The notes under the pieces are model-generated. The model saw only the letters and a list, made by a program, of their open reading frames with translations. It was not told the origin of the DNA and made no database searches. A program made the translations under genes and the position numbers. Shown here piece after piece: positions 6,578 through 37,797 of a DNA stretch of 64,000 bases. Each line of letters begins with the position of its first letter. Position 1 is the stretch's first letter. This DNA is from Aneurinibacillus sp. (GTDB lineage: Bacteria > Bacillota > UBA5301 > DYFA01): assembly GCA_020725425.1 (NCBI GenBank), contig DYFA01000033.1:1-64000 (forward strand), written 5' to 3'.

Positions 6578-8328
<1,751 letters not shown>

Positions 8329-19308: not shown

Positions 19309-20310
19309 TCAGAAGCGGCCGGCCAGCGGGGTGAGCGCCAGCGCCCGGAGGAGCCGGTAGGCTCCCTCCAAATCGTCCAGGTCGATCATCTCGGCCGCGG
19401 AGTGGACGTAGCGGCAAGGCAGGGAGACCGCCCCGCTCGGAATGCCTTCCAGTGTCACCTGGATGACGGCGGCGTCGGTGGCGCCGCGCTCCAGGACCTC
19501 CCGCTGGTGGGGTATCCCCTCCCTCCCCGCGATTTCCAGGAGAAGCTCCCGGACCGCCGGGTGGGCGATCAGGCCCGTGTCCATCACCTTGACCGCCGGC
19601 CCCTTCCCCAGCGCCACGGTCCGGCGCTCGGCCTCCGGGGTGTCGCCGGCGGGGCTGACGTCGATGGCCACCGCTACCGCGGGGTGGAGCCCGAAGGCCG
19701 CCGTCCGGGCCCCCCGCTGCCCGACTTCCTCCTGGACACTGAAGACGACCACCAGGTCGTTCGGCACCTCCCGCAGCTCGGTCAGCAACCGGACCAGCAG
19801 GGCGCATCCGGCCCGGTCGTCGAGGGCCTTGGCGACCACCCGCCGGCAACAGACCGAAAAGGAGGGAGCGAAGCTCGCCACCGCTCCTGTTCCGCCGGTG
19901 AGCGCCCGGGCCTCCTCGGCGCTGGTCGCTCCGATGTCGATGAAGAGCCTGGCCGGGCGGAGGTCCTTGACTTCCTCCACCTTCTCCTGGCCGACAACCC
20001 CGGGCACCCCGTTGGAAAAGGCCACCCGGGCGCCGACCAGCCGCCAGGCCGGGATACCCGAGCCCACCGGCATGAACCGCAGAAACCCTCGCTCGTCTAC
20101 CTCCGTCACGATCAATCCGATTTCATCGAGGTGGGCCACGAGCATCAGCCGGGGGCCCAGCCCGAACTTGTGGGCGATGAGGTTGCCGAGGGCGTCGACC
20201 CCTACCTCGTCGGCATACGGCCGCACCAACTCCCCGACCACCCGCCGTATCTCATCCTCCCGGCCCGATACGCCGGCCACCGCGGTCAGATGCTCAAGCA
20301 CCTCTTTCAC
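19309..20310 (-). CDS. M42-family metallo-aminopeptidase (first of three)
   Basis: A 333-residue M42 (FrvX/YsdC/TET-like) peptidase that trims peptides in large cytoplasmic complexes. The dimetal ligands and catalytic residues are visible: VAHLDEIG, LDDRAGCA, SVQEEVGQRG, AIDVSPA, and YVHSAAEM near the C terminus. The start overlaps the preceding paralogue stop by 4 nt. Confidence 0.92.
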   Translation of the reverse strand: MKEVLEHLTAVAGVSGREDEIRRVVGELVRPYADEVGVDALGNLIAHKFGLGPRLMLVAHLDEIGLIVTEVDERGFLRFMPVGSGIPAWRLVGARVAFSNGVPGVVGQEKVEEVKDLRPARLFIDIGATSAEEARALTGGTGAVASFAPSFSVCCRRVVAKALDDRAGCALLVRLLTELREVPNDLVVVFSVQEEVGQRGARTAAFGLHPAVAVAIDVSPAGDTPEAERRTVALGKGPAVKVMDTGLIAHPAVRELLLEIAGREGIPHQREVLERGATDAAVIQVTLEGIPSGAVSLPCRYVHSAAEMIDLDDLEGAYRLLRALALTPLAGRF

Positions 20311-21338
20311 TGAGGTATCCCCTCCTCGGCGATGCTCTCCAGGAAAGCCCGGGCCAGCTTGACGGCGTTCTCCAGGTCGGCGGGGTTCAGTGCGGTCACG
20401 GGCGAATGGATGTACCGGGTAGGCACGGAGATGGTGACTGACGGCACCCCGGCGCCGGTAAGGGCGATCCTTCCGGCGTCGGTGGCGCCTACGTTGAGCC
20501 GGCGCAGCTGGTACGAGATGCCCCAGCGGGTGGCCACCGCCCGCAATCGTTCAACCAGCCACGGCCGCACCACGACCGAGGCGTCCATGACGGTCACCGC
20601 CGGCCCCTGCCCTACCACCGTGGATCTCAGGTGGGATGGGGACTCGGGAACGTCCGAGGCGGTCGTTCCCTCGAACACCAGGGCCAGGTCGGGTTCGAGC
20701 CGGTAGGCTGCCACGCCGGCGCCCCTCATCCCCACCTCCTCCTGGACGGTGAAGACCCCGTAGAGGGGAAAGGGATACCGGTCCTTCAGAAGCTCCGCCA
20801 CGGCGGCGCACCCGACTCGGTCGTCAAAGGCCTTGCCCTTCATCAGGCCCTCGCCGAAAGGACCGGGTTCCGTGGCGAAGACCGCTACCTCCCCGATCCG
20901 GACGAGCTCCGCCGCCTGCGCCTCATCCGTCGCCCCGAGGTCGATGTGCAAGTCGGAAAACCCATAGGGTTTCTTCCGCTCCTCCGGTTCCTGGAGGTGG
21001 ACCGGCTTCCCGCCGATGATTCCGGGGACCCGGCGCGGCCCGACGTACACTGCCTTGGCCGGCAGCACCCGCGGGTCCATCCCACCCACCGGACGGAAGC
21101 GTAACAGCCCGGTCTTCTCGATCTTAGTGATCATGAGGCCGACCTCATCCTGGTGGGCGGCGAGCATAACCCGGGGCCGCTCCGCCCCGGAGCTCCCCCG
21201 CTTCAGGCAGATCAGGTTCCCCAGGGCGTCGGTCTGCAGCTCATCGACGTGCGGGGACATCCGCTGCCGGAGCAGGTCGCGGACCTCATCCTCCGCGCCG
21301 GACACCCCGCTGCAGGCCGCCAGCTCGGCTAGAAGCAT
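20307..21338 (-). CDS. M42-family metallo-aminopeptidase (second of three)
   Basis: A 343-residue paralogue. Motifs: AAHQDEVGLM, FDDRVGCA, TVQEEVGMRGAG, and RYIHSPV. The third metal-site acid that is Asp in its neighbours appears here in LVFEGTTASD, a Glu, which may alter metal affinity. The start at 21338 is chosen for GGAGG seven nt upstream; the open frame continues to 21593 inside the neighbouring gene. Confidence 0.9.
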   Translation of the reverse strand: MLLAELAACSGVSGAEDEVRDLLRQRMSPHVDELQTDALGNLICLKRGSSGAERPRVMLAAHQDEVGLMITKIEKTGLLRFRPVGGMDPRVLPAKAVYVGPRRVPGIIGGKPVHLQEPEERKKPYGFSDLHIDLGATDEAQAAELVRIGEVAVFATEPGPFGEGLMKGKAFDDRVGCAAVAELLKDRYPFPLYGVFTVQEEVGMRGAGVAAYRLEPDLALVFEGTTASDVPESPSHLRSTVVGQGPAVTVMDASVVVRPWLVERLRAVATRWGISYQLRRLNVGATDAGRIALTGAGVPSVTISVPTRYIHSPVTALNPADLENAVKLARAFLESIAEEGIPQ

Positions 21339-22381
21339 TGCCATCCCTCCACCAGCCGGCGGTCGAGCCGCGCCACCGCCTCCGCCAACAACCTCCCCGT
21401 CGCCTCCACGTCGGCCAGGCTGACCACCTCGACGGCGGTGTGCATGTTGCGCACCGGGATGCCGAGAAGCATCGTCGGCACGCCAGCCCGGGCGACCTGC
21501 AGGGCGTAGGCGTCGGTTCCTCTGGGATCCGGTTCCGCGCTGAACTGGTGCGGCAGGCCAAGGCCGCGGGCAGTCGCCGCGAAGTGCTCCCACACCCGCG
21601 GATGGACCGGCGGGCCGATGGCTAGCGAGGGGCCCTTACCCAGTTCGGCGGGGGTCCGGTTGGGTTCCTCCTCCGCAAAATCCACGTCGATGGCGACGGC
21701 CGCATCGGGCGCCAGGGCGAAGGCGGCGGCGGTGGCTCCCCGGTAGCCGTCCGTTTCCTCTCCCACCGTCGCCACCGCATACACATCCGCCACGTGAGGC
21801 CGGCGGCCCAGTTCCTCCAGGCACACGAGGAGGCTGGCCACCCCCACCCGGTCGTCGAAGGCTTTCCCGGCGACCCGGTCGCCGGCCAGGGAGAAGAAGC
21901 GCCCGGCGAGGGTGACCGGGTCCCCCACCCGGATCTCCTCCCGCGCCCGGGCGGCCGGCAACCCGACGTCGATGTACAGCTTCTCCCGCGGGTAAGCCTG
22001 CTTCTGCTCGTCGCCGTCCTGGATGTGAGGCGGCTTGGCTCCGATGATCCCCGGCACCGGCCGCCGCCCATGCACCACCACCTCCTGGGCCACCAGCACG
22101 CGGGGATCGATCCCGCCTACCGGCAGGAAACGCAGGAAGCCGTCGTCTTCGACGGCCGTGATGATCAACCCTATCTCGTCCAGATGCGCCGCCAGGAGGA
22201 CGCGGGGGCGGGGTCCCTCCCCCTCCCCCCGTTTCAGGGCGATCACGTTCCCCAGGCGGTCCCGGCTGACCTCCGCATCCAGCGCGGCGAATTCCTCCCA
22301 CACCACGGCGGCGACGGGGTCCTCGAACCCGGACACACCCGGGGTGGTCGAGAGCCTCGTCAACTTCTCCCGCAGGTCCAC
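21329..22381 (-). CDS. M42-family metallo-aminopeptidase (third of three)
   Basis: A 350-residue paralogue with AAHLDEIGLI, FDDRVGVAS, VGEETDGYRG, AIDVDFAEE and RNMHTAVEVV. The start is taken as GTG at 22381 behind GGAGGAGG; ATG codons at 22405 and 22417 would add an Arg-rich leader. The first six residues after the GTG (VDLREKL) begin the conserved domain. Three consecutive M42 genes next to an ABC transporter suggest peptide or amino-acid salvage. Confidence 0.88.
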   Translation of the reverse strand: MDLREKLTRLSTTPGVSGFEDPVAAVVWEEFAALDAEVSRDRLGNVIALKRGEGEGPRPRVLLAAHLDEIGLIITAVEDDGFLRFLPVGGIDPRVLVAQEVVVHGRRPVPGIIGAKPPHIQDGDEQKQAYPREKLYIDVGLPAARAREEIRVGDPVTLAGRFFSLAGDRVAGKAFDDRVGVASLLVCLEELGRRPHVADVYAVATVGEETDGYRGATAAAFALAPDAAVAIDVDFAEEEPNRTPAELGKGPSLAIGPPVHPRVWEHFAATARGLGLPHQFSAEPDPRGTDAYALQVARAGVPTMLLGIPVRNMHTAVEVVSLADVEATGRLLAEAVARLDRRLVEGWQCF

Positions 22382-22452
22382 GCGCCTCCTCCTTCTCCTT
22401 GGCATTTCGCTGTCCATCGGCGTTTACCTGCGCCACTCATACCCACCGCGAC

Positions 22453-23355
22453 TCAGGTCTTCCAGCCGAGAAACCGCCGCTCCAGCCAGGTCACCCCGTA
22501 GTACAGGGCGATCGAGACGAGGCAGAGCACTCCCACACTCGCCATGATGAGGGACATCTTGAACACCTGGCCGCCGTAGACGATCAGGAAGCCGAGCCCC
22601 GCCTGGCTGACCAGGAACTCTCCGACGATCGTCCCCACCAGGGACAAGCCCACGTTGACCTTGAGGGCGCCGATGATCGTGGGCAGGCTTGCCGGCAGCA
22701 CCACCAGCCGGAGGAGCTGGGTCTTGGTGGCGCCGAAGGTGCGGAGGAGTTTGATCTTGTCCTGGTCCACCTCCTGGAAGCCGGTGAAGACCATGAGGAT
22801 GGTCACGATGACCGAGATCGCCAGAGCCATGGCAATGATGGCGGGGATGCCGTTACCCAGCCAGACGATGAAAATGGGACCCAGGGCCACCTTGGGAACC
22901 GAGTTCAGGACGACGATGTAAGGCTCGAGGACCCGGGAGAGGTTGCTCGACCACCACAGGGCGACGGCGATGAGGGTGCCGATCAGGGTGCCGGCGGTGA
23001 ACCCGACCACCGTCTCCGAAACAGTCCAGGCGGAGTGGCGCCACAGGGACCCGTCCCGGGCCAGGTTGAGCAGCGTGGCGGCGATCTGCGAGGGCTGGGA
23101 GATGATGAACGGATCGATCCAGCGGAGGCGGGCCGCGGTCTCCCACAAGGCGACCAGCCCGACCGCGAGCGCCAAGCGGGCCAGGGCGATCAGGCGGTGG
23201 CGCCGGCGCAATCCGCTGAGGTACCGCCGGTGATCCTCCGAGACTTCGGCAGCCTGGGGCGGAACACCCAACCCCAGGCCCAGCCGGGTCTCGGGGAGGT
23301 ACTGATCAGCACCGGCGAGCTTTTTGGGGAAGTCGTTTCCGCGCCCGTCAGGCAT
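22453..23355 (-). CDS. ABC transporter permease, NitT/TauT/SsuC type
   Basis: A 300-residue inner-membrane permease of the nitrate/taurine/sulfonate/thiamine-precursor group. About six membrane helices follow a cytoplasmic N-terminal segment; the EAA-like loop FTGFQEVDQDKIKLLRTFGATKTQLLRL contacts the ATPase. The start at 23355 uses AAGGAG ten nt upstream and overlaps the ATPase stop. Confidence 0.9.
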   Translation of the reverse strand: MPDGRGNDFPKKLAGADQYLPETRLGLGLGVPPQAAEVSEDHRRYLSGLRRRHRLIALARLALAVGLVALWETAARLRWIDPFIISQPSQIAATLLNLARDGSLWRHSAWTVSETVVGFTAGTLIGTLIAVALWWSSNLSRVLEPYIVVLNSVPKVALGPIFIVWLGNGIPAIIAMALAISVIVTILMVFTGFQEVDQDKIKLLRTFGATKTQLLRLVVLPASLPTIIGALKVNVGLSLVGTIVGEFLVSQAGLGFLIVYGGQVFKMSLIMASVGVLCLVSIALYYGVTWLERRFLGWKT

Positions 23356-24136
23356 GCACGTCAAGCTCCTTCCAAACAGCAGCGAAGTAGGTCCGGAAAG
23401 CCGGCGAGTCGTTCCGCGCCGACAGAGCCGAGTGCGTGCCGAGGCCGAGGTCGATCCGGTGCTCGGCCACCACCGTCCCCGGGCGGTGCGAGAGGACCAC
23501 CACCCGGTCCGACATGGCGATCGCTTCGGAGATGTCGTGAGTCACCAGGACGACCGTCTTCCGCTCCTCCCGCAGAATGTGGCCTATCTCGTCCTCCAGC
23601 GCCAGACGGGTCTGGTAGTCCAACGAAGCGAAGGGCTCGTCGAGGAGCAGCACCTCCGGGTCGGTGGCCAGCGTCCGCACGAGAGCCACCCGCTGGCGCA
23701 TCCCGCCCGAGAGCTGGCGCGGGTAGTATCGTTCGAAGCCGCCCAGGCCGTACCGTTCGAGCATTGACCGCACCTTGCGCACGGCCGCCGCGTCCCGCCG
23801 GCCCATGACTTCCAGCCCGAGCAGGGCGTTGTCGAGGATCGTCCGCCAGGGGAAGAGGTGGTCATGCTGCAACATGTACCCGACCTTGGGCGTGGGGCGC
23901 TCGACGAGGTCGCCGTCGATCCGGACCTCCCCGGCGGTGGGACGGATGAGCCCCGCCACCACGGAGAGGAGCGAACTCTTGCCGCACCCCGAGGGCCCGA
24001 CGATGCTCACGAACTCCTCTGAAGCGACCGTGAGGGACACGTCCCGCAGCGCCTCCGTCTCCCCGTGCCGGTGCTGGTACGTCAGACTGACGCCCTTGAG
24101 GGAGAGGCGGGGCTTGAGGGAGGAGGGGGCGGTCAC
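23348..24136 (-). CDS. ABC transporter ATP-binding protein, NitT/TauT/SsuB type
   Basis: A 262-residue ATPase: Walker A GPSGCGKSS, Q-loop MLQHDHLFPW, signature LSGGMRQR, Walker B VLLLDEPFASLD and the H-loop THDISEA. The start is GTG at 24136, overlapping the binding-protein stop (GTGA). The C-terminal residues resemble SsuB/TauB. Confidence 0.93.
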   Translation of the reverse strand: MTAPSSLKPRLSLKGVSLTYQHRHGETEALRDVSLTVASEEFVSIVGPSGCGKSSLLSVVAGLIRPTAGEVRIDGDLVERPTPKVGYMLQHDHLFPWRTILDNALLGLEVMGRRDAAAVRKVRSMLERYGLGGFERYYPRQLSGGMRQRVALVRTLATDPEVLLLDEPFASLDYQTRLALEDEIGHILREERKTVVLVTHDISEAIAMSDRVVVLSHRPGTVVAEHRIDLGLGTHSALSARNDSPAFRTYFAAVWKELDVHA

Positions 24137-25137
24137 GGAGCGGTGATGGCCGCCACGGCTCTCTCCGCGAACTCGTTCGTCACCAGCTTCTCGAAGGGCA
24201 CCCGCTTCGGCAGTTCCCCGCCGGCGATCATTATCTCCTGCAGACGGTAGAAGCTCTCCTTGCTCAGCACCGGCGTCCGCTGCCACGCCCCGATCCTCTG
24301 GTAACGCGTCACGCACCGCAGCAGCACCTCCTGATCCACCTGGGGGAAAAACTTTTCGATCGCCTTCACCAGCTCGGCCGGCTCGTGCTGTTGCGTCCAG
24401 AGCATCCCCCGGTAGATGGCGTTGGTGAACTTCTGGACCAGGTCGGGGTGGTTCCTGACCCAGTCGGCCCGGGCGTGGAACGCCGTGTAGGCCGTCGGGC
24501 CGACCGCCGCCCCGATGGAGGCCACGACGTACCCCGTCCCTTCCTTCTCCATCATGGAGGGGGTGGGCTCGAAGAGGGCCACGTAGTCGCCGACCCCGGA
24601 GGCGAAGGCTCCGGCGGTGGCGGTGTAGGCAATGTTGCGGATGATGTTGACGTCCTTGAACGGCTCCAGGCCGCTCTTGCGGATCGCTTCTTCCAGGCAC
24701 AGCTCCGGTACCCCGCCCGGGCGGGCGCCGATCACCGTCTTGCCCTTCAGGCTGCTCCACTGGAAGTCCGGCTCCGGCCTCCGGCCGACCAGGAAAGAAC
24801 CGTCCCGGGCGGTCAGTTCGGCAAAGAGAATGAAGTGGTTGGCCGCCCCCTGGGTGTAGACGTAGATCCCCGCCTCCGGACCGAAGAAGCCGATGTCGAC
24901 GGTCCCCGAGACCAGGGCCGCCGCCCCCTTGTCGGCCCCCCAGGCGGTCGACAGCTTGACCTCCAGCCCCTCTTCCTCAAAGAACCCCTGGCTGAACGCC
25001 ACATACAGGGGCACGTAGAAGACCGACCGGACCACTTCTGAAAGCCGCACCTTGGCGAGCGGAGCAGCCTCCCCCACGCCGGCCAGGCTCAGGAGGAGAA
25101 GCGCGGCCACAACCGTCGCCACCAACGCCCGACGCAC
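24133..25137 (-). CDS. ABC transporter substrate-binding protein (NMT1/THI5-like)
   Basis: A 334-residue periplasmic-type binding protein. An N-terminal hydrophobic segment with VAALLLLSLAGVGEA is a signal peptide, possibly cut after GEA. The fold signature VFYVPLYVAFSQGFFEEEGLEVKL is that of the NMT1/TauA/SsuA group. The ligand could be a sulfonate, a pyrimidine or another small organic molecule; sequence does not decide. The start is uncertain: GTG at 25137 fits AGGGGG best; TTG codons at 25143 and 25155 are alternatives. Confidence 0.85.
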   Translation of the reverse strand: MRRALVATVVAALLLLSLAGVGEAAPLAKVRLSEVVRSVFYVPLYVAFSQGFFEEEGLEVKLSTAWGADKGAAALVSGTVDIGFFGPEAGIYVYTQGAANHFILFAELTARDGSFLVGRRPEPDFQWSSLKGKTVIGARPGGVPELCLEEAIRKSGLEPFKDVNIIRNIAYTATAGAFASGVGDYVALFEPTPSMMEKEGTGYVVASIGAAVGPTAYTAFHARADWVRNHPDLVQKFTNAIYRGMLWTQQHEPAELVKAIEKFFPQVDQEVLLRCVTRYQRIGAWQRTPVLSKESFYRLQEIMIAGGELPKRVPFEKLVTNEFAERAVAAITAP

Positions 25138-25151
25138 CGCCAAACACCCCC

Positions 25152-25547
25152 TCAAGGCAGATTAGGCTCCTCCCCTGCAGGGGAAGCCTTGCTTACCTTA
25201 TGCCCTTCGGGGACCTTTGGTATATGTCCATAGACGAGATAGGACGTGATCAGCCCGGCCGAGAGTTGCCCCTCCGCAATCACCCGCCCGTCCGCCACCA
25301 CCAGCGGCAGGCGGACGCCGGGTGTCGCCAACCGGAGCCGCACGTCAGGATAGGCAGCCAGTTCCGGCGCTTCGGCGTCCAGGTAGCGAAGCTGAACCTC
25401 CCCCCCGAACCGGTCGGCCAGCACCGGCTCGATCACCTGCACGGCGCGCTGGACCCACTCCTGCGCGTCCCACGGACGCTGGCCCTCCCCTCCCCCTCAC
25501 CCCTTCCCGGGCGGAGGGCAGCCGACCACGAGGACCTCCCGTGGCAT
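25152..25547 (-). CDS. Small thioredoxin-fold protein with in-frame UGA (candidate selenoprotein)
   Basis: Read through one UGA this is a 131-residue protein. It starts at 25547 with an ideal ribosome site (GAGGAGG, 7 nt), runs MPREVLVVGCPPPGKG, meets UGA at codon 17 (25497-25499), and continues in the same frame as a thioredoxin-like fold: a helix WDAQEWVQRAVQVIEPV, the strand EVQLRYLDAEAP, the probable cis-proline in RLPLVV, and a final helix. The layout resembles the YuzD/DUF1462 family, where a CxxC precedes the EWL helix; the UGA falls close to that redox site. A hairpin placed like a bacterial SECIS follows. A nonsense mutation, or a downstream GTG start at 25442 with a poor ribosome site, are the alternatives. 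It precedes the ABC transporter genes. Confidence 0.55.
25465..25499 (-). promoter_or_regulatory. UGA codon with SECIS-like hairpin
   Basis: After the UGA (25497-25499) come 23 nt, then the start of the apical loop. A 6-bp GC-rich stem GCGTCC/GGACGC (25465-25479) closes a three-base GTG loop beginning with G. This spacing and loop agree with the general bacterial SECIS rules as I know them (about 16-37 nt from UGA to loop, an early G in the loop). Function is inferred. Confidence 0.45.
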
Positions 25548-25613
25548 GCGCCCCACCTCCTCACACCAGCAGGGTATGAGGGGGAGACAGGACCGGTCCA
25601 CAGGCGAAACAAA

Positions 25614-26951
25614 TCAGTTCAACTTCGTGATCTGCAAAAGGTCGCAGAGGTCGCTGAGTCGGGTGGTGAGATCCCCCTCGCTGATGAGGAGGTGATGATC
25701 CACGCCTTGCTCCAGCATCCGTTCGAACACCGCTCTGGCATCGCCCTCCATGCGGATCCGGGCGACAAACTTGCTCCCTGCGCTGATCCATTCCTCCTCG
25801 GATACCCGCTCGGCGGAGCCCCTGGCGATGAACATCCGGTAACTCCCGGCCTTTCCGCACAGGTTGACCAGCGTGACCACCGGGAGCGGCCTGAGGGGGA
25901 AGCCGACCACCGTGCCGCTTTCGCCACCGGGGAGGATATGCACCTTTGACCCGTCCTCCGCCAGGGAATGGGCCGAGCTGCCCTCGTGGGCCAGGAGAAG
26001 GCTGTTGCCCTCCAGGTCGAGACGGCCCACCTCCGCCAAGGCAGTCGGGCCTTCAGCTCCCAGGTCGTTCAAGACGGACATCACGACCGTGTGGCCGATA
26101 TCGCCCTCGGTGTCCAGAACGAGACCCTCGTCGGCCAGCCAGGAAGAGGGAAGGTTCACCACGCCGCTGTAGTTCGGGTAGCACTCCGCCGCCGCCCCGG
26201 TCAGGCCGTACCGTGCCCAGAGGTCCCGCACGCCCAGATACACCTGGGCCGCATAGAGGAGGCGCTCCTCTCCCACCTCGGCTTTCCCGAGCCTTCCGGA
26301 CTGGCGCATCCGCTGCACGACCTCGGCAGCCTCCGCGGGTGGGTGTTGCCGGGCCTGACTGATCAGCTCGTCCATTTCGACGTGAACGATCGTCGTGCCG
26401 AAGGCCCGCGTCAAGTCCCACTCCTCGCTGGTCATGTCCTGGGAGCCGGCGACCCGCCAGGTCTGCCGGGGTCCGATCAGGGCGATCCTCCCCTGGCTCA
26501 CTCTCCTGGCAGCCTTGGCCACCTGAGCGTAGCTGCGGATCTGCTGCACGAGTCCCTGCTCCTCGGGTAGTCCGTACACGTACTTGTAGGGGATCCCGTT
26601 CCCCCGGAGGATGCTCCCGAAATGCTGCACGCAACCGAGCGAAAAGGTTTCCGTGAAGGGAACCGCCCACAGGATCACCGGACGCCGCACGGTGTTGACC
26701 AGGAGATACTGCAGCGAATCCAGCACCCAGGTGGCATGGATGATGACCAGCACATCCGGGTCGGCCTCTGCCAACTGGCCGGCGGCCTCCAACGCCTCGG
26801 CGGCCTCCCAGACGACCTTCCCTGCGGCCTTGACCTCCAGCCCGCTTTGCTTCAGCGCGGCCCCTGCGCCGTTGAAGAGCGCCTCGGCCCTCTCTCCGCC
26901 GCTCTCGAAGTGGCTGGCCACCGCCACCAGCCCCACTCTGGCCTTTGCCAT
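25614..26951 (-). CDS. L-fucose/L-arabinose isomerase-like protein
   Basis: A 445-residue protein of the FucI/AraA isomerase-like superfamily, which interconverts aldoses and ketoses with a divalent metal. VLDTEGDIGHTV carries a Glu/Asp pair in the place of the metal ligands and DHHLLISEGDL a late His. It lacks the sequence of true FucI and may act on another polyol or sugar acid. The start at 26951 has AGGAGGTAGAG upstream. It is the last gene of the large catabolic run, 43 nt after the SDR. Confidence 0.78.
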   Translation of the reverse strand: MAKARVGLVAVASHFESGGERAEALFNGAGAALKQSGLEVKAAGKVVWEAAEALEAAGQLAEADPDVLVIIHATWVLDSLQYLLVNTVRRPVILWAVPFTETFSLGCVQHFGSILRGNGIPYKYVYGLPEEQGLVQQIRSYAQVAKAARRVSQGRIALIGPRQTWRVAGSQDMTSEEWDLTRAFGTTIVHVEMDELISQARQHPPAEAAEVVQRMRQSGRLGKAEVGEERLLYAAQVYLGVRDLWARYGLTGAAAECYPNYSGVVNLPSSWLADEGLVLDTEGDIGHTVVMSVLNDLGAEGPTALAEVGRLDLEGNSLLLAHEGSSAHSLAEDGSKVHILPGGESGTVVGFPLRPLPVVTLVNLCGKAGSYRMFIARGSAERVSEEEWISAGSKFVARIRMEGDARAVFERMLEQGVDHHLLISEGDLTTRLSDLCDLLQITKLN

Positions 26952-26994
26952 GACTCTACCTCCTGTTCTTCGCCTGAAATGAGCACACTCCGCC

Positions 26995-27741
26995 CTAGTC
27001 CATGAAGATTCCCCCGTTGACATCGAGGATCTCTCCTGTGATGTACCTCGCCCGGGGCGAAGCCAGAAAGACGACGGCGTCCGCCACGTCGCTGGGGCGC
27101 CCCGGGCCGCGAACAACCCCTTTGATACTGGCCTCTTTTTTCTCCTGTCCGTAGACATCGAGCATGGGAGTGTCGATCAACCCCGGCGCCACAGCATTGA
27201 CGTTGACGTTGTACGCCAGGAGTTCTTTCGCCGCCTGGATGGTGAGGCAGGAGACGCCGGCCTTGGACACCGAATAGCAGGCTGCCGCGTTGATCCCCCC
27301 GACCTTGGCCGCCACCGACGTCAGATTGATGATCACGCCTTGGCGCCGCTCTTTCATCTCCGGGATAACCGCCTGGGTGCACAGGAAAACGCTCTTAAGG
27401 TTCACCGCCAGGCAGCGGTCCCAGTCGGCCTCGGCAATCTCCTCCAGCCTCCCCCCCATGGTCATCCCGGCGTTGTTCACCAGGATGTCGATCGGGCCCA
27501 GCCGCCGGCGCACCGCCTCGATCGCCGCCACCACCTCGGCTTTCCGGGAGACATCGGCCTTGACCGCCACCGCCCGGCGGCCCTTGCGCTCGAGGTCGGC
27601 CACGAGCAGGGCCGCGGCGTCCGGTTTGGAGTGGTAGCAGACCCCGATGTCCGCTCCCGCCTCCGCCAGGGCGCAGCAGATGGCGCGGCCGATGCCGCCC
27701 GTGGCTCCGGTGACAAACGCCACCCGACCTGCCAGTTCCAT
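26995..27741 (-). CDS. Short-chain dehydrogenase/reductase
   Basis: A 248-residue classical SDR. The nucleotide motif is TGATGGIG near residue 12, the NNAG motif is at about residue 90, the catalytic Ser is in NLTSVAAK and the Tyr-Lys pair in YSVSK; the C terminus ends VNGGIFMD. It resembles FabG-like sugar or hydroxyacyl dehydrogenases. In this cluster it probably oxidises a hydroxyl group of the catabolised compound; specificity is open. Confidence 0.9.
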   Translation of the reverse strand: MELAGRVAFVTGATGGIGRAICCALAEAGADIGVCYHSKPDAAALLVADLERKGRRAVAVKADVSRKAEVVAAIEAVRRRLGPIDILVNNAGMTMGGRLEEIAEADWDRCLAVNLKSVFLCTQAVIPEMKERRQGVIINLTSVAAKVGGINAAACYSVSKAGVSCLTIQAAKELLAYNVNVNAVAPGLIDTPMLDVYGQEKKEASIKGVVRGPGRPSDVADAVVFLASPRARYITGEILDVNGGIFMD

Positions 27742-27771: not shown

Positions 27772-28971
27772 CTAGCCTGCCTGTCGGCCCGCCCCCCGGG
27801 CGAAGCGCGACCAGCGCAGGGGCGTCACATCGACCGTGGTCTCCTGGCCCAGGATGATCTGGGTGATGAGTTGCCCCGTGAGCGGCGCCACGCCGATGCC
27901 GTCGCCCTCGTGGCCCGCCGCGATGTAAAACCCGGGCACCTCCTCGACCGCTGAGATGATCGGCAGGTGATCCGGAGTGTACGGCCGCAGGCCGGCGTAA
28001 GTTCTGATGCAGTGCAACTGGGCGAGAGCGGGGATGAAGCGGACCGCCCGGCGGATGATCGCCCTGATCACCGGGTAGGTCGTGCGGGTGTCGTACCCGG
28101 CGAACTCCCGGCTGCTGCCGAGCAACATGTTGCCGGAGGCTGTCGGCTCGAAAACGAAGGCCACGCCGTACTTGAGGGTCTCCGAATCGGTCCCCTCGGT
28201 CAGCTCCGGATGGAACTTCGCTACCACGTAATGGGCTTCCGAGATCTTGCGGTGTCCCACCTGAGCCGTCTGTTCGACGACCACGAGCTGGCCGCGCCGC
28301 GGGATGATGGGGATGTCGAGGCCGACCATCTTCCCCAGGAACGGTGCCCAGGCGCCACAGCAGTTGACGAGGCGCGGGGTCCGGATCTCCCCCCGGTCGG
28401 TGACCAGGCCGGCTATCCGGCCCTGCTCGTCGCGCTTGATGCTCTTCACCTCCTCGTAGGTGCGGATCTCCGCCCCCAGGCGGCGGGCGGCCCGCGCCAG
28501 GGCGACGGCCACCTGGATCGGCATGCAGGAGGCGTCGGAGGCGCACTCGATCGCCCCGAGGAAACCCGGTGCCAGAAGAGGTTCCTGCTCGTACAGCTCA
28601 TCCTGATCGACGAAGCGCACCGGAAGCCCGCAGGCCAGTTGCTGCTTCATCCGGTCCAGCATGAAGTCGAGTTCCTCCGGGGTCTCAATGACCAGGATGC
28701 TCCCCTTCTGCGTGTACTCGATGTCCCAGTCCAGCTCGGGCAGGATTTGCTGATAGATTCGGTTGCTCTGGATGGTGAGGTTGGTGTCGTAGCCCGGCTG
28801 GTGGTCCTGGGCCATGATGTTTCCGTCGCAGCCGCCCGAGCATCCCGCCGCCAGGTCGCCCCGCTCGACCAGAGCCACCTTCATGCCCGCCTTGGCCAGA
28901 AAGTAGGCGCAGGCCGCGCCGCTGACCCCGCCGCCCACCACGGCCACATCCACGCTACTTGACGGAGTCAT
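27772..28971 (-). CDS. FAD-dependent amine/amino-acid dehydrogenase (DadA/sarcosine-oxidase-like beta subunit)
   Basis: A 399-residue flavoprotein of the DAO family. The FAD dinucleotide motif VAVVGGGVSGAACAYFLAKAG is at the N terminus, and the C-terminal GLRPYTPDHLPIIS and AAGHEGDGIGVAPLTG are typical of glycine, sarcosine, D-amino-acid and proline dehydrogenase beta subunits. The start at 28971 is preferred (GGAGG seven nt upstream) over 28977. It overlaps the BFD-like gene and should be the substrate-oxidising subunit of the five-gene complex at 27772-31177. Confidence 0.88.
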   Translation of the reverse strand: MTPSSSVDVAVVGGGVSGAACAYFLAKAGMKVALVERGDLAAGCSGGCDGNIMAQDHQPGYDTNLTIQSNRIYQQILPELDWDIEYTQKGSILVIETPEELDFMLDRMKQQLACGLPVRFVDQDELYEQEPLLAPGFLGAIECASDASCMPIQVAVALARAARRLGAEIRTYEEVKSIKRDEQGRIAGLVTDRGEIRTPRLVNCCGAWAPFLGKMVGLDIPIIPRRGQLVVVEQTAQVGHRKISEAHYVVAKFHPELTEGTDSETLKYGVAFVFEPTASGNMLLGSSREFAGYDTRTTYPVIRAIIRRAVRFIPALAQLHCIRTYAGLRPYTPDHLPIISAVEEVPGFYIAAGHEGDGIGVAPLTGQLITQIILGQETTVDVTPLRWSRFARGAGRQAG

Positions 28972-29248
28972 CGTCATCCCTCCCCAGGAGCCCGATCTCC
29001 AACGGCCGGACGGGCGGCCGCTTCGTCGCCGGCCGCAGCTCCGCCGGGTTCACCCCCGTCTGCTCGGCGATGATCTGCCTGACCAGCCGCTCGCACGTCT
29101 TTCCTTGGCAGAGGCCCATCCCCGCCCTGGTGCGGATGCGCACCCCGCGCAAATCCCGCGCCCCGTCGGCCAACGCTTCGAGGATTTCCTGTCTCGTCAC
29201 CTCTTCACAGCGACAGATGACGGTGTCGCCCTTGTTGCCGCAACTCAC
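28955..29248 (-). CDS. BFD-like [2Fe-2S] subunit of the amine dehydrogenase complex
   Basis: A 97-residue iron-sulfur protein. VICRCEEVT and GLCQGKTCERLV supply four cysteines in the C-x-C ... C-x4-C pattern of bacterioferritin-associated-ferredoxin-type domains, found in small electron-transfer subunits of HcnABC and proline dehydrogenase complexes. The start is taken as GTG at 29248, with AAGGGGA nine nt upstream; GTG at 29257 overlaps the ferredoxin stop. Confidence 0.82.
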   Translation of the reverse strand: MSCGNKGDTVICRCEEVTRQEILEALADGARDLRGVRIRTRAGMGLCQGKTCERLVRQIIAEQTGVNPAELRPATKRPPVRPLEIGLLGRDDDDSVK

Positions 29249-29253
29249 GCCGT

Positions 29254-29778
29254 TCACTCCCCTTGTCCGGGCCGGGGCTTCTGGCCCCGGCGTTCCATGC
29301 TTCTGACCTCGTCGGCCACCTCGAGCGGGACTGCCAGGAAGACCACCGGCGTGCGATCGTTCCGGCTCGAGTTGACCACGCGGATGACCCGGCCTTCGGC
29401 GACTACCTCTCCTGCCCGGTTGGTCGCCGGGACTCTCTCCCCCGCCGCCGGCAGAGGGACGTACTCGTAGGGGAACCCGACCAGCGCCTCGCCGGGGGCG
29501 AACGCTTTGTCGACCAGGAAGATCGCCTGGCCGGGACAGACCGCAAGACAGAGCCCGCACCCCTTGCACAACTCGGCGTCCAGGCGCGGCAGATTGGTGA
29601 TCGGCTGCCCCACCTTGATCGCGCCGTAAGGGCAGACAGTCTCACACGGGTTGCAGGGTATCTCCTGGACACACTCGATCACCGCGCAGGCGCCTCTGTC
29701 CAGCCGCTCCTCGCTCGGATAGCCGGGACTCCTCCGGAGCTCCTCGCGGCTTGGGAAACCGTCCACTGCGACGCTCAT
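29254..29778 (-). CDS. Ferredoxin-type protein with two [4Fe-4S] clusters
   Basis: A 174-residue protein carrying CNPCETVCPYGAI and CKGCGLCLAVCPGQAI, a two-cluster ferredoxin core (residues about 38-90), followed by a beta-rich tail. In size and position it matches the gamma-type subunit of Pyrococcus-type dye-linked proline dehydrogenase, which passes electrons between flavins. It overlaps the flavoprotein gene before it by 4 nt. Confidence 0.85.
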   Translation of the reverse strand: MSVAVDGFPSREELRRSPGYPSEERLDRGACAVIECVQEIPCNPCETVCPYGAIKVGQPITNLPRLDAELCKGCGLCLAVCPGQAIFLVDKAFAPGEALVGFPYEYVPLPAAGERVPATNRAGEVVAEGRVIRVVNSSRNDRTPVVFLAVPLEVADEVRSMERRGQKPRPGQGE

Positions 29779-30863
29779 CCGGCCTTCCCCACTTTCATCA
29801 GTTGTTCTTTGGCGGCTTGACGGCCCTCACCAAAGGGGCCCATCCGCAGGGCAGCCAGCCGCTCCCAGGCCGCCGTCATCCGCTCCTCCGCCTCGTCCGG
29901 TGAGAGCAGTCCGAGCGATGCCGCAGCGGCTATGCCCGCCAACCGACCCTCTTCGATTGCCGTGCTCGCTTCCTCCACCCCCGTCACGTCGCCCGCCACG
30001 AAGATCCCCTTGACGGTGGTTTCCATCCGCTCGTCGTGGACCGGCACGAACCCTCCGAGGGCGGGGAGGTACTCGCACTGGCACCCTGCCATCCAGGCCA
30101 GTTCCGCCAGCGGGGTGAGGCCCACCGCAAGGCACACGGTGTCGACCTCCACCTCCCTCTCCGTGCCGGCCACCGGTTTGAAGTCGTCAAGCTGGCAGAT
30201 GACGGCGGAGCTTACCTCCGGCTCGCCCTTGGCTTCGAGCACGGTGTGGGAGGTGAGGATCGGGACGCCGGCCCGGCGGACTTTCGCGGCGTGAACGGCG
30301 TACCCGCCGATCTTGGGCAGCGCCTCGATGACGGCCACCACGTCCGCCCCCGCCTGCAGCAGCTGGTAGGTCACAATCAGGCCCACATTGCCCGAGCCGA
30401 CCATCAAAATGCGGCTGCCCGGCAGGACCCGGTGGAGATTGATCATGGTCTGGGCTGCCCCTGCCCCCATCACCCCCGGTTTGGTCCAGCCCTTGAAGGA
30501 GAAGGTGTTCTCCATGGCCCCGGTTGCCAGGATGATCCGTTCCGACTCGATCTGGACCGTTCCCTTGGGGGTGGTTCCGGCGACAATCCGTCCGTCGTAG
30601 ATCGCGAAGGCGGCCGTGTCGAGCACCAGTTGGACACCGAGCTCCTGCGCTTCCTGACACAGCTTCCGGGCGAGGTCGATCCCCCGCGTACCGGCGAAGT
30701 GCTCCCGTGAGCCGAAGAACTTGTGGATCTGCTTGAAAAGCTGTCCTCCCGGGCGGGCGTTCTCGTCCACCAGCACGACCTTGGCCCCGGCACGGGCTGC
30801 TTCGATGGCAGCCGCCAAGCCCGCCGGGCCGGCGCCGATAATGGTGACATCGGACCTGGTCAT
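29775..30863 (-). CDS. NAD(P)/FAD-dependent oxidoreductase (alpha subunit, HcnB-like)
   Basis: A 362-residue two-dinucleotide-fold flavoprotein: FAD motif IIGAGPAGLAAAIEAA at the N terminus and a second, NAD-type motif MVGSGNVGLIV near residue 155, then the FAD-closing GIFVAGDVTG. It is the nucleotide-oxidoreductase subunit of opine/HCN-synthase/proline-dehydrogenase-type complexes. Start at 30863 with the ATGA overlap to the [2Fe-2S] gene; the frame extends upstream without a site. Confidence 0.9.
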   Translation of the reverse strand: MTRSDVTIIGAGPAGLAAAIEAARAGAKVVLVDENARPGGQLFKQIHKFFGSREHFAGTRGIDLARKLCQEAQELGVQLVLDTAAFAIYDGRIVAGTTPKGTVQIESERIILATGAMENTFSFKGWTKPGVMGAGAAQTMINLHRVLPGSRILMVGSGNVGLIVTYQLLQAGADVVAVIEALPKIGGYAVHAAKVRRAGVPILTSHTVLEAKGEPEVSSAVICQLDDFKPVAGTEREVEVDTVCLAVGLTPLAELAWMAGCQCEYLPALGGFVPVHDERMETTVKGIFVAGDVTGVEEASTAIEEGRLAGIAAAASLGLLSPDEAEERMTAAWERLAALRMGPFGEGRQAAKEQLMKVGKAG

Positions 30864-31177
30864 TTTGCCTTCCCCCACTTGCCCAGCCCTTGCTGGGTTT
30901 CTACGGTCATCCCTTCCGCCACGGGAGTGACGCACGTCCGCACGTTCGGGACCCCGTTCACGACCATCACGCAGTCCGTGCACCGCCCGATGCCGCAAAA
31001 CAGCCCCCGCGGCTCATGCCGCTTCTTGGTGATCCGGTTGACCCGGATCCCCTTGGCCAGGAGCGCCGCCAGGATCGGCTCCCCCTCGAACGCCTCCACG
31101 GGTTGCCCGTCGACCGTGATCGTCACTTTGCGGCGGGCTTCCAGCCTCCCCAGGATGGGATGATCCAGTACCCTCAT
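30860..31177 (-). CDS. HcnA-like [2Fe-2S] subunit
   Basis: A 105-residue ferredoxin-fold protein with CGIGRCTDC and a later TCVTP Cys, the plant-type [2Fe-2S] pattern of HcnA and of the N-terminal part of the proline dehydrogenase alpha subunit. In Pyrococcus-type enzymes, as I recall them, this domain is fused to the FAD/NAD subunit; here the two are separate overlapping genes. It also overlaps the dehydratase gene before it by 4 nt. Confidence 0.85.
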
Positions 31178-32853
31178 CGTTGTGTGCCCCTTTCCGGATG
31201 AATTGCCGCCCCCGTTTGGGCTTCTCCTGCCAATGCAGCGTAAATCGCCAGGATGCCCTGGGTGACCTTAGGCTCGGGCCGCTTCCATTGGGCGCGCCGC
31301 CTGGCCAGTTCCTCGTCGCTCACCCGCAGGTGAAGGCGGCGGTTGGGGAGGTCGAGGTCGATCGTATCGCCGTCCTGAACCAGAGCGATGGTCCCTCCGG
31401 CCATCGCTTCGGGCGCCACGTGCCCGACGGCCGCGCCCCGCGTGAACCCGGAGAACCGGCCGTCGGTGATCAGGGCGACCGAGCTGTCCAGGCCCATGCC
31501 GAAGAGGGCATCGGTCGAAAGCATCACCTCGCGCATCCCCGGGGCGCCCGCCGGCCCTTCGTAACGCACCACCACCACTGTGCCCCCCTCGATCTCGCCT
31601 CCTCGGATCGCCTGGAACGCCGCCTCGTCGGAGTCGAAGACCTTGGCCCGGCCGGTGAAAGTGAACATGCCGGGCTTGAAGGAGGAGGGCCGGCAGATCG
31701 CCCCCTTGGGGCAGAGGTTCCCCCACAGCACCGCCAGGCCTCCGGCCACGTTCTGAGGGTCGGCGAGCGGCCTGATCACCCGCGGGTCGCGATTCACGGC
31801 GCGGGCCGCCACCTCGCCCACCGTCACCCCGCCGACGGTCACGGCTTCCAACTCCAACACCTCTCTGAGCTCGAGAAGAACCGCCGGGACCCCGCCTGCG
31901 GCGTGCAAATCCGTTACATCGTAGGGTCCGTTCGGAATGACCGAGCACAGGCAGGGCACCCGGCGGCTAAGGGAGTCAAACTCTTCTATCCTGAAGGGGA
32001 TTCCCAGCTCCTGGGCGAAGGCCAGAAGGTGCAGGACAGCGTTGGTCGAACCGCCGATGGCCAAGTCCACCTTCGCCGCATTCCTCAAGGCGGACAGGGT
32101 GAGGATCTCCCGGATCGTCTGCCCCTCCTGCACCATCTCCACGATGCGGCGCCCGGCGGCGCGGGCCGCCCGCACCTTCTCGGACCACACCGCGGGGATG
32201 GTGGACGTGCCCGGCAAAGCCAGTCCCAGGGCTTCGGCCAGGATCTGCATCGTATTGGCCGTCCCCATGAGCGGGCAGGCGCCGGGCGTGGGGTTGACGA
32301 CCTCCTCCATCGCCAGGATGTCCTCCGCCGCAACCCTCCCGGCCGCCGCTCCGCCCAGGACCGCCTCGTCGAACTCGCTCTGCACGAGCTTGCGGCCGCG
32401 GAAGGCGCCCGGGAGCATCGGGCCGCCCGTCACCATGATCGTCGGCACGCCGACCCTGGCCGCCCCCAGGATCTGCCCGGGGATGATGCTGTCGCACGAC
32501 GACAGGAGGACCAGGCCGTCGAACAGATGCTCCGTCGCCACGATCTCGATCGAAGCGGCGATCACGTCGCGGATCACCAGTTCGTAGCGGAGGTGCTTGG
32601 TGCCGACGCAAATGGCGCCGCAGGTCGAGATAGTCCCGAACTCGAAGGGGACTCCGCCCGCCTGCCACACCCCAGCCTTGACCGCCTCCGCCAGGGGCCT
32701 TAGGTGGGCGTGGCCGGGAGCCGCCTCGTTGAAGGCGTTGACGATCCCGATATGCGGACGCAAGAGGTCGTGGTCGCCGTAGCCGCAGGCGTGATAGATG
32801 GCCCGGCGCCGCGCCCCTTCCAACCCTTCAAAGAAAGTCTTGCTCCCCCACAT
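31174..32853 (-). CDS. IlvD/Edd-family dehydratase (sugar-acid or dihydroxy-acid)
   Basis: A 559-residue iron-sulfur dehydratase. The cluster cysteines lie in [18 protein letters not shown] and [11 protein letters not shown], and the active-site region is in [12 protein letters not shown] and PDGRFSG-like [12 protein letters not shown]. The family includes dihydroxyacid dehydratase and aldonate dehydratases. The catabolic setting favours a sugar-acid or hydroxy-acid substrate over valine synthesis. The following [2Fe-2S] subunit gene overlaps it by 4 nt. Confidence 0.88.
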
Positions 32854-32868
32854 GGCAGGTCCTCCTCG

Positions 32869-33609
32869 CTACATGAAACCGGAGTACCGCTTCTGGACCA
32901 CTGCGGTGTAAACCCACCTGATCATCGTGACGAAGTCGAAGACCGGCAGGCCGGTGGCCTCCTGAACTGCCTTGGAGAAGGGCGGCAGGTCGCTGCACTC
33001 GAAGACAAACGCCTCGGTGTCCGGGTAGAGGCGCAAGAGCTTCTTGGCCGCATCGACGACCTCGGCCTCCATCGCGTCGATGTCCGCCTCTACCTTGCTC
33101 TCCTCCAGGATCACTCTGCGGAACTCGTCGTAGTCCTCCAGGCCCACGATGCCCAGCGGAATGACGTCCGGGTCGATCCCGACCGCCTCGAAGTGCCTCT
33201 GCCCCAGGTTCTTGGCGCCAGCGGTGAGAATTCCGACCCGTCCTTTGGCTCCCAGCATCCGGTGGACCATCGGCACCATCAGGAGAGGCGAGGTGAAGAC
33301 GGGAATCCTGACCGCTTCGGCCACCTCCCGCTGGAAGATGGCATAAAAGCCGCAGCCGGTGGTGATCGCGCGGACGCCCTCGGCCTCCAGCTTCCGGGCG
33401 GTCTCGATCACCTTCGCCAGGCGGGTGGCGTCGGGCCCTCTGGCGTCACACCACCAATCAGTGGGCAGGTCGGGGACATTGACAATCCGCACTGGAAAGT
33501 CATACGTCGAGGCGTTGCCCACATTCCCCGGGATCAGGGGATAGGTGGTGCTGTTGAGCATGATGCCGATCGCTTCACCGTAAAAGGCGCGGCCGCCCTT
33601 TATCCGCAT
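32869..33609 (-). CDS. Asp/Glu/hydantoin racemase-superfamily protein (copy 1)
   Basis: A 246-residue protein. Two cysteines in the positions of the catalytic pair are in TTGCGFYAIF and FECSDLPPF, which supports racemase or related cofactor-free chemistry such as isomerase or decarboxylase activity. It ends KRYSGFM. A close paralogue lies at 39993-40736. Start at 33609 with AAAGGAG nine nt upstream, overlapping the AcnX small subunit. Confidence 0.82.
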   Translation of the reverse strand: MRIKGGRAFYGEAIGIMLNSTTYPLIPGNVGNASTYDFPVRIVNVPDLPTDWWCDARGPDATRLAKVIETARKLEAEGVRAITTGCGFYAIFQREVAEAVRIPVFTSPLLMVPMVHRMLGAKGRVGILTAGAKNLGQRHFEAVGIDPDVIPLGIVGLEDYDEFRRVILEESKVEADIDAMEAEVVDAAKKLLRLYPDTEAFVFECSDLPPFSKAVQEATGLPVFDFVTMIRWVYTAVVQKRYSGFM

Positions 33610-34061
33610 GGCTGTTGCTCCTTTCGCGGAATTTTGACGATCTGGCCGGCAGTGCCGTCCACTTTCAGGTAGTCGCCGGTGATTAGGGCGTCGAACACGG
33701 CTTGCTCGACCGTCACAATCGGAAAACTGCGTCCATAAAGCTCCTCCGCGATGATCGGCCCTAACGCCAGGACGGCTTCGGTTTCGAGGTTGATGATAGC
33801 GGCGGGATTGGTCCGACACCGGACCATCTCCATCAACACGCCGCACCCGCTGCTCGAGCCGGCCCCCCAGGGGAAGACCAGCACCTTGCCGGCCACGCTG
33901 ACCCCGCGCCACTCGTGGTGGGCGTCGGTCACCACCCCGGTGGACGGGTCCACGCCCCCCCAGAAGCTCAAGGAGTTCAGCGTCACCAGAGCCTCGCCTT
34001 CGCCGTAACCCCCGATGATGCCGCGGGCCGGATACCGAAGCGCCGGCCGTCCTCTCGTCAT
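33600..34061 (-). CDS. Aconitase X small subunit (DUF126)
   Basis: A 153-residue swivelling-domain protein. Residues GVVTDAHHEWRGVSVAGKVLVFPWGAGSSSGCGVL contain the conserved Ser and Gly-rich turn of the DUF126/AcnX small subunit. It works with the large subunit before it, overlapping by 4 nt. AcnX enzymes include cis-3-hydroxy-L-proline dehydratase and archaeal phosphomevalonate dehydratase. Confidence 0.9.
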   Translation of the reverse strand: MTRGRPALRYPARGIIGGYGEGEALVTLNSLSFWGGVDPSTGVVTDAHHEWRGVSVAGKVLVFPWGAGSSSGCGVLMEMVRCRTNPAAIINLETEAVLALGPIIAEELYGRSFPIVTVEQAVFDALITGDYLKVDGTAGQIVKIPRKEQQPCG

Positions 34062-35302
34062 GCGGCCACCCTCCCGGTCGCAGCCGCCTCGGCGCACTGC
34101 GCCAGGGCGCAATACTTGACCTCCACCCCGATCAACCCGGGGGCGTACTTGGCGAACTTGCCGGAATTGGTGGCCATCGTCCGGAAGTTCCAGTCGGCCA
34201 GGGGCCAGTGCAGGATGCAGGTGTCGGTGGCCAGGCGCACGCCCGCGGCGGCCAGCTCGGCGGCCAGCCCGGTGGATTCCAGAGCCCCCAGGACAGCGCG
34301 ATTGGTGTAGAGGAAACACTCGACGCCCTTGGCCACGCACCGCCCTCCAAGCGCCCGCAGAAAGTCCCAGGCTTCAGCGTAGGAGAAGTGTGGACACCCC
34401 AATGCCACCAGGTCAACCTTTTCGCCCCCTGCGGTGGTGAGTTCGTTGCGTGTCTCAGCGAGGTCGGCCGGGGTGACGGTGAGCACCTCGGCGGGCTTCC
34501 GGCCGCCAAACGCCTGCCGGGCGGTGGGAGCCTCCGGGGTGACTCCGACCACGTGGAACAGTGCCAGGGAGCCCGACGCCGCCCCGGCGGCGCTCAGAGC
34601 CTTGAGGCAGTCGGCCGTGACCTCTTGCGGCACCCCTTCGATGACCGGAATCCTGCTGCCCAAAGTCTTGCCGAGCCAGTAACCCAGGAGGCCGAAGAGC
34701 GACGTGTCGTAGGCCAGTTCGGGGCCGAAACCCCGCAAGCGGACTAAGACGGAGCCATGCCGGTTCTCCGGCAGGTGGAGGCCGAAGCGCGGCGTCCGGC
34801 CGGTGACGGCGGCGCAGGCGTCCACGAAATCGCCGTAGCGGTGGGTGCGCGCGCCGATCACCGAGTTCACGTAGGCGATGGCGTTCGACTCCGCCCAGAC
34901 GATTTGCTCGCCGAACCTGGGAAGAGGCCCGGCCAGGTACGGGGCGCAGGTCCAGGTGGGAATGGCCCCCATGGCCAGGTAAGCCTCTTCCATCCGGCGA
35001 CACTTCTCCGCCAACGCCTCGGGGAAGCGGAACTCCCGCCACCGCCGGATGTCACGTCCCGAGACGTTGGTCGTGGTGGGGACGACCACCTTGGCCCCCA
35101 TCGCCGCCAGCTTCTCGGCAAAATCGAGGCCGGCGTCACCCGCCGTCTGATAGCAGCACCCGTCCACATGGACCTGGGAGATCGACTGGAACTCCTCCGC
35201 CCCATACAGCGCGCCGAGTTTGACCAGGATCCGCATGGCGAAGGCTGCCGCTTCCCCCTTGTCCCCGGCGAGCATCTCCTCTTCGACCCGGCTCAGCCTC
35301 AC
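34058..35302 (-). CDS. Aconitase X catalytic large subunit (DUF521)
   Basis: A 414-residue AcnX large subunit. Cysteines in DGCCYQT, ALGCPHFSYAE and DTCILHWPL are candidate iron-sulfur ligands, and VPTTTNVSGRDI and HLPENRHGSVL are family stretches. The gene pair predicts a lyase acting on a hydroxy acid or hydroxy-imino acid. Bacterial AcnX near amino-acid genes is usually linked to cis-3-hydroxyproline. GTG start behind GGGAGG, 4 nt after livF. Confidence 0.9.
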   Translation of the reverse strand: MRLSRVEEEMLAGDKGEAAAFAMRILVKLGALYGAEEFQSISQVHVDGCCYQTAGDAGLDFAEKLAAMGAKVVVPTTTNVSGRDIRRWREFRFPEALAEKCRRMEEAYLAMGAIPTWTCAPYLAGPLPRFGEQIVWAESNAIAYVNSVIGARTHRYGDFVDACAAVTGRTPRFGLHLPENRHGSVLVRLRGFGPELAYDTSLFGLLGYWLGKTLGSRIPVIEGVPQEVTADCLKALSAAGAASGSLALFHVVGVTPEAPTARQAFGGRKPAEVLTVTPADLAETRNELTTAGGEKVDLVALGCPHFSYAEAWDFLRALGGRCVAKGVECFLYTNRAVLGALESTGLAAELAAAGVRLATDTCILHWPLADWNFRTMATNSGKFAKYAPGLIGVEVKYCALAQCAEAAATGRVAA

Positions 35303-35306
35303 TTCT

Positions 35307-36011
35307 CTAGCCTCCCAGGTACGACTTGCGCACCGTCTCGCTGGCCAACAGGTTTCTCGCGCTGTCCTCCGCCACGACGCGCCCGACCTCCAGGATGTAG
35401 CCCTTGTCGGCGACCTTCAGCGCCATCTTGGCGTTTTGCTCAACGAGGAGGATGGTCACGCCCTGCCGATGGATCTCCTGGATCAGAGCGAAGACCTCCC
35501 GCACGACGAAGGGGGCCAGCCCCATGGAGGGTTCATCCAGGAGCAAGAGCTTGGGCCGGGACATGAGGGCCCGGCAGATGACCAGCATCTGCTGCTCGCC
35601 GCCGGAGAGGTGGCCCGCCCGCTGGTTGCGGCGCTCACCAAGCCGGGGAAACTTGGCGAAGAAGTCCTCGATGTCTTTCTCGACTTCGCCGTCGCGCCGG
35701 GTATACGCTCCTATCTTGAGATTCTCGTAGACAGTCTGACGGGGAAACACCTTGCGCCCCTCGGGACAATGAGAGATTCCGGCCCGGACGACCGCATCAG
35801 TCGGCAGAGTGTCCAGCCGCCTTCCCAGGTACACGATTTCCCCGGCAAAAGGCTTGAGCAATCCGGAGATCGTTTTGAGGAGGGTGGTCTTGCCGGCGCC
35901 GTTGGCGCCGAGCAAGGTCGTCAACTCCCCCTCCTTGACCGAGAGGGAAACGTCCTTGAGCGCCTCGATCTTGCCGTATTTGACCGACAGGCCCTTGACC
36001 TCAAGAAGCAT
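35307..36011 (-). CDS. livF: Branched-chain amino-acid-type ABC transporter ATPase (LivF)
   Basis: A 234-residue ATPase: Walker A GANGAGKTT, signature LSGGEQQM, Walker B LLLLDEPSMGLAP and VEQNAKMAL, which are typical of LivF. It overlaps livG by 11 nt. Despite the liv name, this class carries many ligands such as amides, urea and aromatic acids. Confidence 0.94.
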   Translation of the reverse strand: MLLEVKGLSVKYGKIEALKDVSLSVKEGELTTLLGANGAGKTTLLKTISGLLKPFAGEIVYLGRRLDTLPTDAVVRAGISHCPEGRKVFPRQTVYENLKIGAYTRRDGEVEKDIEDFFAKFPRLGERRNQRAGHLSGGEQQMLVICRALMSRPKLLLLDEPSMGLAPFVVREVFALIQEIHRQGVTILLVEQNAKMALKVADKGYILEVGRVVAEDSARNLLASETVRKSYLGG

Positions 36012-37787: not shown

Positions 37788-37797
37788 GACGCCCACC

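Follow-up and report, generated by a model that had tools for sequence, protein, structure and literature searches.

In this study, we concluded that the minus-strand gene at 25547-25152 of the window, by which we mean the whole 64-kb stretch of DNA analyzed here, very probably encodes a 131-residue selenoprotein, in which the UGA of codon 17 is decoded as selenocysteine (Sec) through SelA, SelB, SelD and tRNA-Sec together with a downstream hairpin. Selenocysteine is the rare 21st amino acid, inserted at a stop codon that is read through on purpose, and selenoprotein genes are readily mis-annotated as truncated. Sec decoding best explains the reading frame, the homology across the UGA, the Cys or Sec at this site in relatives, the Sec machinery of the genome, the covarying SECIS of relatives and the predicted fold. 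From these sequence data, we infer that Sec is inserted at UGA17 in vivo. The gene and its elements are as follows:

25152..25547, minus strand: predicted selenoprotein gene with an ArsD/YuzD-like thioredoxin fold; ATG at 25547, stop TGA at 25154-25152, 131 sense/Sec codons
25497..25499, minus strand: in-frame UGA, codon 17, probably read as selenocysteine, as judged from the Cys/Sec column and the Sec machinery
25556..25561, minus strand: ribosome-binding site AGGAGG, seen in the sequence 8 nt 5' of ATG 25547
25518..25520, minus strand: codon of Cys10, the sole Cys of the protein and a possible partner of Sec17

The original prediction of a ribosome site and ATG followed by 16 codons, one UGA and 114 further codons was borne out on the minus strand, where the ATG at 25547 is followed by 16 codons, TGA at 25499-25497, 114 sense codons and the stop TGA at 25154-25152. 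A plus-strand reading of 25152-25547 gave no sensible protein and was rejected. The product is MPREVLVVGCPPPGKG-U-GGGEGQRPWDAQEWV..., with Cys10 as its single cysteine, and the stop codon of the gene overlaps the TTG start of the next gene (TTGA).

At such a GC content every frame contains long ORFs, so that an open frame by itself says little. Therefore, homologues from other genomes, but not the source genome, were used to build a profile, which was searched against all six frames of the window, TGA being translated through. This profile matched the read-through frame before and after the UGA (E=2.6e-14), from about residue 5, ahead of the UGA, to near residue 103, and no other match was found in the six frames of the 64-kb window. 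GC content by codon position was similar before (0.81/0.56/0.88) and after (0.81/0.46/0.76) the UGA. A close orthologue for a test of purifying selection was looked for, and none was found. Rfam searches of 24000-27000 returned sub-threshold matches only, one to a group II intron (22.4 of 40 bits) and one to a microRNA, which were taken as chance.

Family matches were present in 83 of the 399 genomes of the phylum that were searched, and by table count about 41 matches carried one in-frame TGA, compared with about 5 carrying TAA or TAG. Every row of a 25-row alignment (25/25) held Cys or Sec in the column of Sec17, with Sec itself in L040, L047, L056 and L058, the exact column match being uncertain because the loop is short and gapped and the match depends on gap placement. 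The first alignment put the window Sec on the second loop site and later alignments put it on the first, Cys/Sec prevailing in each of the two columns. Homologues thus have Cys or UGA at codon 17, a result that had been named in advance as support for Sec, and in many of them UGA lies in the same loop. One Sec layout reads FGSR...C-x4-U-G-P (e.g., L016, L032 and L036), and the other has Sec at the first loop site (the four members named above); most Sec relatives carry it at the second site (C-x4-U). In a quick tree, Sec was found in the loop of 27 of 39 distinct members, and the window protein was divergent, with a long branch, a best identity of 33% and an unsure placement. In a genome-contig collection, a search with a four-row profile gave just three loci, two of them labeled Thermincola, and a profile search of a viral contig collection gave no family match.

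The genome also contains the Sec machinery, selA, selB, selD and tRNA-Sec all being present, as the original prediction had proposed to check. Among the genome contigs, selB (357 bits, cut-off 242), selA (594 bits, cut-off 268) and selD (373 bits, cut-off 125) were found adjacent in a row on contig 8 (C8):

G000:C8:30658-35262: selenium genes in the order tRNA-Sec, selD (with Sec), selA, selB

The selD gene has an in-frame TGA of its own in the motif K-S-G-U-A-A-K, followed 20 nt on by an 8-bp hairpin with a GGA loop. The tRNA-Sec gene, with anticodon TCA (UCA), adjoins selD and has its 5' side cut by the contig end; it scored 41.2 bits for model positions 12-82 of this cut gene, the gathering score being 47. 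ARAGORN did not call tRNA-Sec, presumably because the gene is cut by the contig end.

According to the bSECIS model, a bacterial SECIS has a loop of 3-9 nt with G in its first two positions and a stem of 4-16 bp, and lies 16-37 nt from the UGA with an MFE <= -7.5 (PMC13188914). The window has the following candidate:

25465..25479, minus strand: SECIS-like hairpin GCGUCC-GUG-GGACGC, 6 bp, with its loop 23 nt after the UGA

The hairpin claimed at the outset is present as described, and its 6-bp stem, GUG loop, 23-nt spacing and local folding energy of about -10 to -11 kcal/mol agree with the bSECIS constraints; it is weak alone, however, since an equally good hairpin follows 97 of the 1704 TGA trinucleotides of the window (5.7%). 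When more than about 45 nt were folded, alternative folds competed with it, and its base-pair probability was 0.02-0.25. The window hairpin supports the case for Sec without carrying it. In the paralogue of the same genome and in 18 relatives of other genomes, the UGA is followed by a hairpin of the UGAGGnCCnnnnCAGUCUC-AGGnn-GAGACUG type, from which the window hairpin differs. The 7-bp stem of this family hairpin was paired in 85.7% of cells, compared with 29-44% when slid by 1-3 columns, and 10 cells had compensatory changes on both sides. Its covariation score was reached by 0 of 500 shuffles, which ignore relatedness, whereas the slid controls keep it. The same-genome Sec paralogue has an 8-bp hairpin with a GGA loop, 17 nt from the UGA.

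A real stop at codon 17, leaving a 16-codon leader remnant, a shorter protein started from an internal GTG at 25442 or a decaying gene, is improbable. A 96-aa ORF from GTG 25442 does exist, and the SECIS-like hairpin of the window is weak by itself; however, the profile alignment starts before the UGA and continues through it, the 114 codons that follow the UGA are intact in a genome that decodes Sec, and an internal start would drop strand 1 of the predicted fold, because this strand precedes the UGA. It is less likely still that an error of sequencing or assembly turned a Cys codon (TGT/TGC) into the UGA. A single base decides this point, no second genome of the lineage was found and Cys stands in the Sec17 column of many relatives, but many other, independent genomes of the phylum have TGA in this loop too, and a second family member with TGA is present in the same genome (L022/L039).

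An AlphaFold run on the 25-row alignment predicted a fold with a mean pLDDT of 83 (about 60 in the Sec loop) and the order E-H-E-H-H-E-E-H, with strand 1 before the UGA and Sec17 in the glycine-rich loop that follows this strand. Among the listed PDB matches, the top target-normalized TM-scores were those of ArsD (3kgk/3mwh, 0.61-0.63), followed by YuzD (1xg8, 0.55), with classical thioredoxins ranking near them; the E values of the ArsD fold match (1.8e-3 to 4.9e-3) are supportive and modest. By sequence profile, the best solved relative was 1xg8 (YuzD, SA0789; E=8.7e-6). The window protein alone scored 12.2 bits with DUF1462 (PF07315), below the cut-off of 25, and weak Pfam matches to DUF1462 and ArsD were obtained in 12 and 6 of the 25 members, respectively, together with weak NCBIfam ArsD matches in 5 of 25 (best E=0.00081). 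No NCBIfam model reached E 0.1 with the window protein, in a copy that includes models of families by Haft and co-workers. The window protein is in ArsD/YuzD fold space and is a member of neither family by their cut-offs. The link to YuzD/DUF1462 in the original prediction holds for profile and fold, but it is distant, with a score short of the Pfam cut-off, and the fit to ArsD is no worse.

ArsD (PF06953, NF033727) has the same thioredoxin-like fold as the window protein, and the loop C-x4-[C/U]-G of many relatives resembles the ArsD-like C-C-S-T-G-V-C-G of L063, which was found by the family profile. In contrast, the window protein scores below the PF06953 and NF033727 cut-offs and has Cys10 and Sec17 only, whereas ArsD has a three-Cys arsenite site near the N terminus. 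ArsD belongs to the ars operon, whereas the neighbors of the window gene are SsuABC-like, SDR, DAO and others, with no ars cluster; two Sec family members do sit in ars clusters. YuzD/DUF1462 (PDB 1xg8, SA0789) matches the window protein in fold and sequence profile, but the score is below the gathering cut-off. Classical thioredoxin (PF00085) has a CxxC/UxxC site, in contrast to the loop C-x6-U-G-G-G of the window protein. SaoT (NF040730), UXX-star (NF041114/NF041211), the CC/Se motif family (NF041239) and HUIPC (NF047660) are likewise small Sec proteins, and several of this catalogued group have a thioredoxin-like fold with Sec in the redox loop, as predicted here. The best NCBIfam selenoprotein-model match of any of the 25 members was to NF047660, with E=0.0011 in one member.

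The window gene is placed between an isomerase-like gene and an SsuABC-like transporter:

24133..25155, minus strand: SsuA-like (NMT1) ABC substrate-binding protein with a TTG start (PF09084, 4.1e-17; TIGR01728, 85 bits, below the cut-off of 163.5)
23348..24760, minus strand: ORF with an SsuB-like ABC ATPase, the domain at residues 238-378 and the true start inside the ORF (PF00005, 2.5e-32)
22453..23364, minus strand: SsuC/TauC-like ABC permease, from profile matches
25614..27158, minus strand: isomerase-like upstream gene, distant to the sulfoquinovose isomerase SftI (NF048012, 94.5 bits, cut-off 700), its true start probably inside the ORF

Further upstream are genes for an SDR, a DAO-type FAD oxidoreductase, BFD, ferredoxin, pyridine-nucleotide and 2Fe-2S subunits, an IlvD/Edd dehydratase and aconitase X. 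The minus-strand stretch 27772-38670 forms a catabolic cluster with the DAO oxidoreductase and its subunits, IlvD/Edd, aconitase X and a branched-chain-type ABC transporter, a layout that suggests the breakdown of an imino or amino acid. Directly downstream of the SsuABC-like transporter, at 19309-22417 (minus strand), are M42 aminopeptidase genes in tandem; Pfam confirmed two of them, and a similar third ORF lies at 20307-21593. The Sao systems (SaoX, SaoP) likewise pair the gene of a small Sec protein with an SsuABC-type transporter, but the window transporter genes score far below their cut-offs (29.6 of 300 and 87.6 of 295 bits).

Other members have different neighbors. The same genome holds a paralogue:

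G000:C24:62464-62775: second Sec family member with the motif C-H-G-U (L039; L104, about 6965-7276)

Its neighbors are ArsM (340 bits, cut-off 263), a SaoE/SO_0444-like permease and ACR3 (394 bits, cut-off 283). In G040, ArsR and ACR3 precede a Sec member. An ArsM neighbor was confirmed only at G000 C24; the neighbors of L109, L110, L112 and L113 looked like other methyltransferases on inspection. In another subgroup, a thioredoxin reductase gene is nearby in several genomes, and the one that was scanned was over the cut-off.

These neighborhoods bear on what the selenoprotein does. An ArsD-like arsenite chaperone that handles metalloids instead of serving in redox chemistry agrees with our reading on Sec and differs from it on function only, and we consider it possible, though rather unlikely. 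The highest TM-scores among solved matches, with YuzD next, belong to ArsD, weak ArsD-model matches occur in 5-6 of 25 members, and Sec members lie beside ars genes in the same genome and in G040, but the window copy is outside an ars cluster, its Cys10 and Sec17 make no three-thiol site and other Sec members stand beside thioredoxin reductase. The ArsD-like fold and the ars-linked paralogue would favor soft metal(loid) binding for some members, and the thioredoxin-reductase neighbors would favor reduction of a disulfide or organosulfur compound for others.

Considering the selenoprotein reading of the window gene, we have proposed a probable model. SelA, SelB, SelD and tRNA-Sec would decode UGA17 as Sec, aided by the hairpin directly downstream, and the protein would adopt a beta-alpha-beta-alpha-beta-beta-alpha core, as in ArsD and YuzD. 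Sec17 would be carried by the loop that follows strand 1, a place at which relatives have Cys or Sec, and may lie near the invariant Pro81 by analogy with thioredoxins. Sec17 would be the reactive group, perhaps as a selenenylsulfide with Cys10. We infer that the chemical center for thiol/selenol redox or for soft metal(loid) binding is Sec17, possibly together with Cys10. The operon layout suggests that the substrate of the window copy is presumably that of its sulfonate-type (SsuABC-like) ABC transporter operon.

A 2026 review listed 119 prokaryotic selenoprotein families and subfamilies in its Table 1, none of them named ArsD, DUF1462 or YuzD (PMC13188914), in line with the earlier remark that no described selenoprotein of exactly such a family was known, and the deep-Sep paper has no mention of ArsD, DUF1462 or YuzD (PMC12013277). 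A literature search on ArsD or metallochaperone and selenoprotein found nothing relevant, although a subscription paper or preprint might describe the family. A Sec-containing ArsD/YuzD-like family therefore appears to be missing from current selenoprotein catalogues. The window gene points to a family that carries Sec in many genomes and for which recognition by a current NCBIfam model was not observed, and some members of this family adjoin arsenite efflux and methylation genes. Tentatively, this may be a widespread, uncatalogued Sec family of one phylum, whose selenol would capture or reduce arsenic, soft metal(loid)s or organosulfur compounds, with copies recruited to arsenic clusters and to the sulfonate-type transport operon of the window. 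The finding opens to direct test whether a selenol substitutes for a thiol in a metallochaperone fold of the arsenic type, and what advantage this brings.

NF041239, the known Moorella-type Sec family, was rejected as the identity of the family; it matches other genes in some family-bearing genomes and nothing in G000. In a class-mate genome, several family copies lie in a row (G001:C22:19592-22959 and 23609-23881), and they adjoin a member of NF041239 in the form without TGA.
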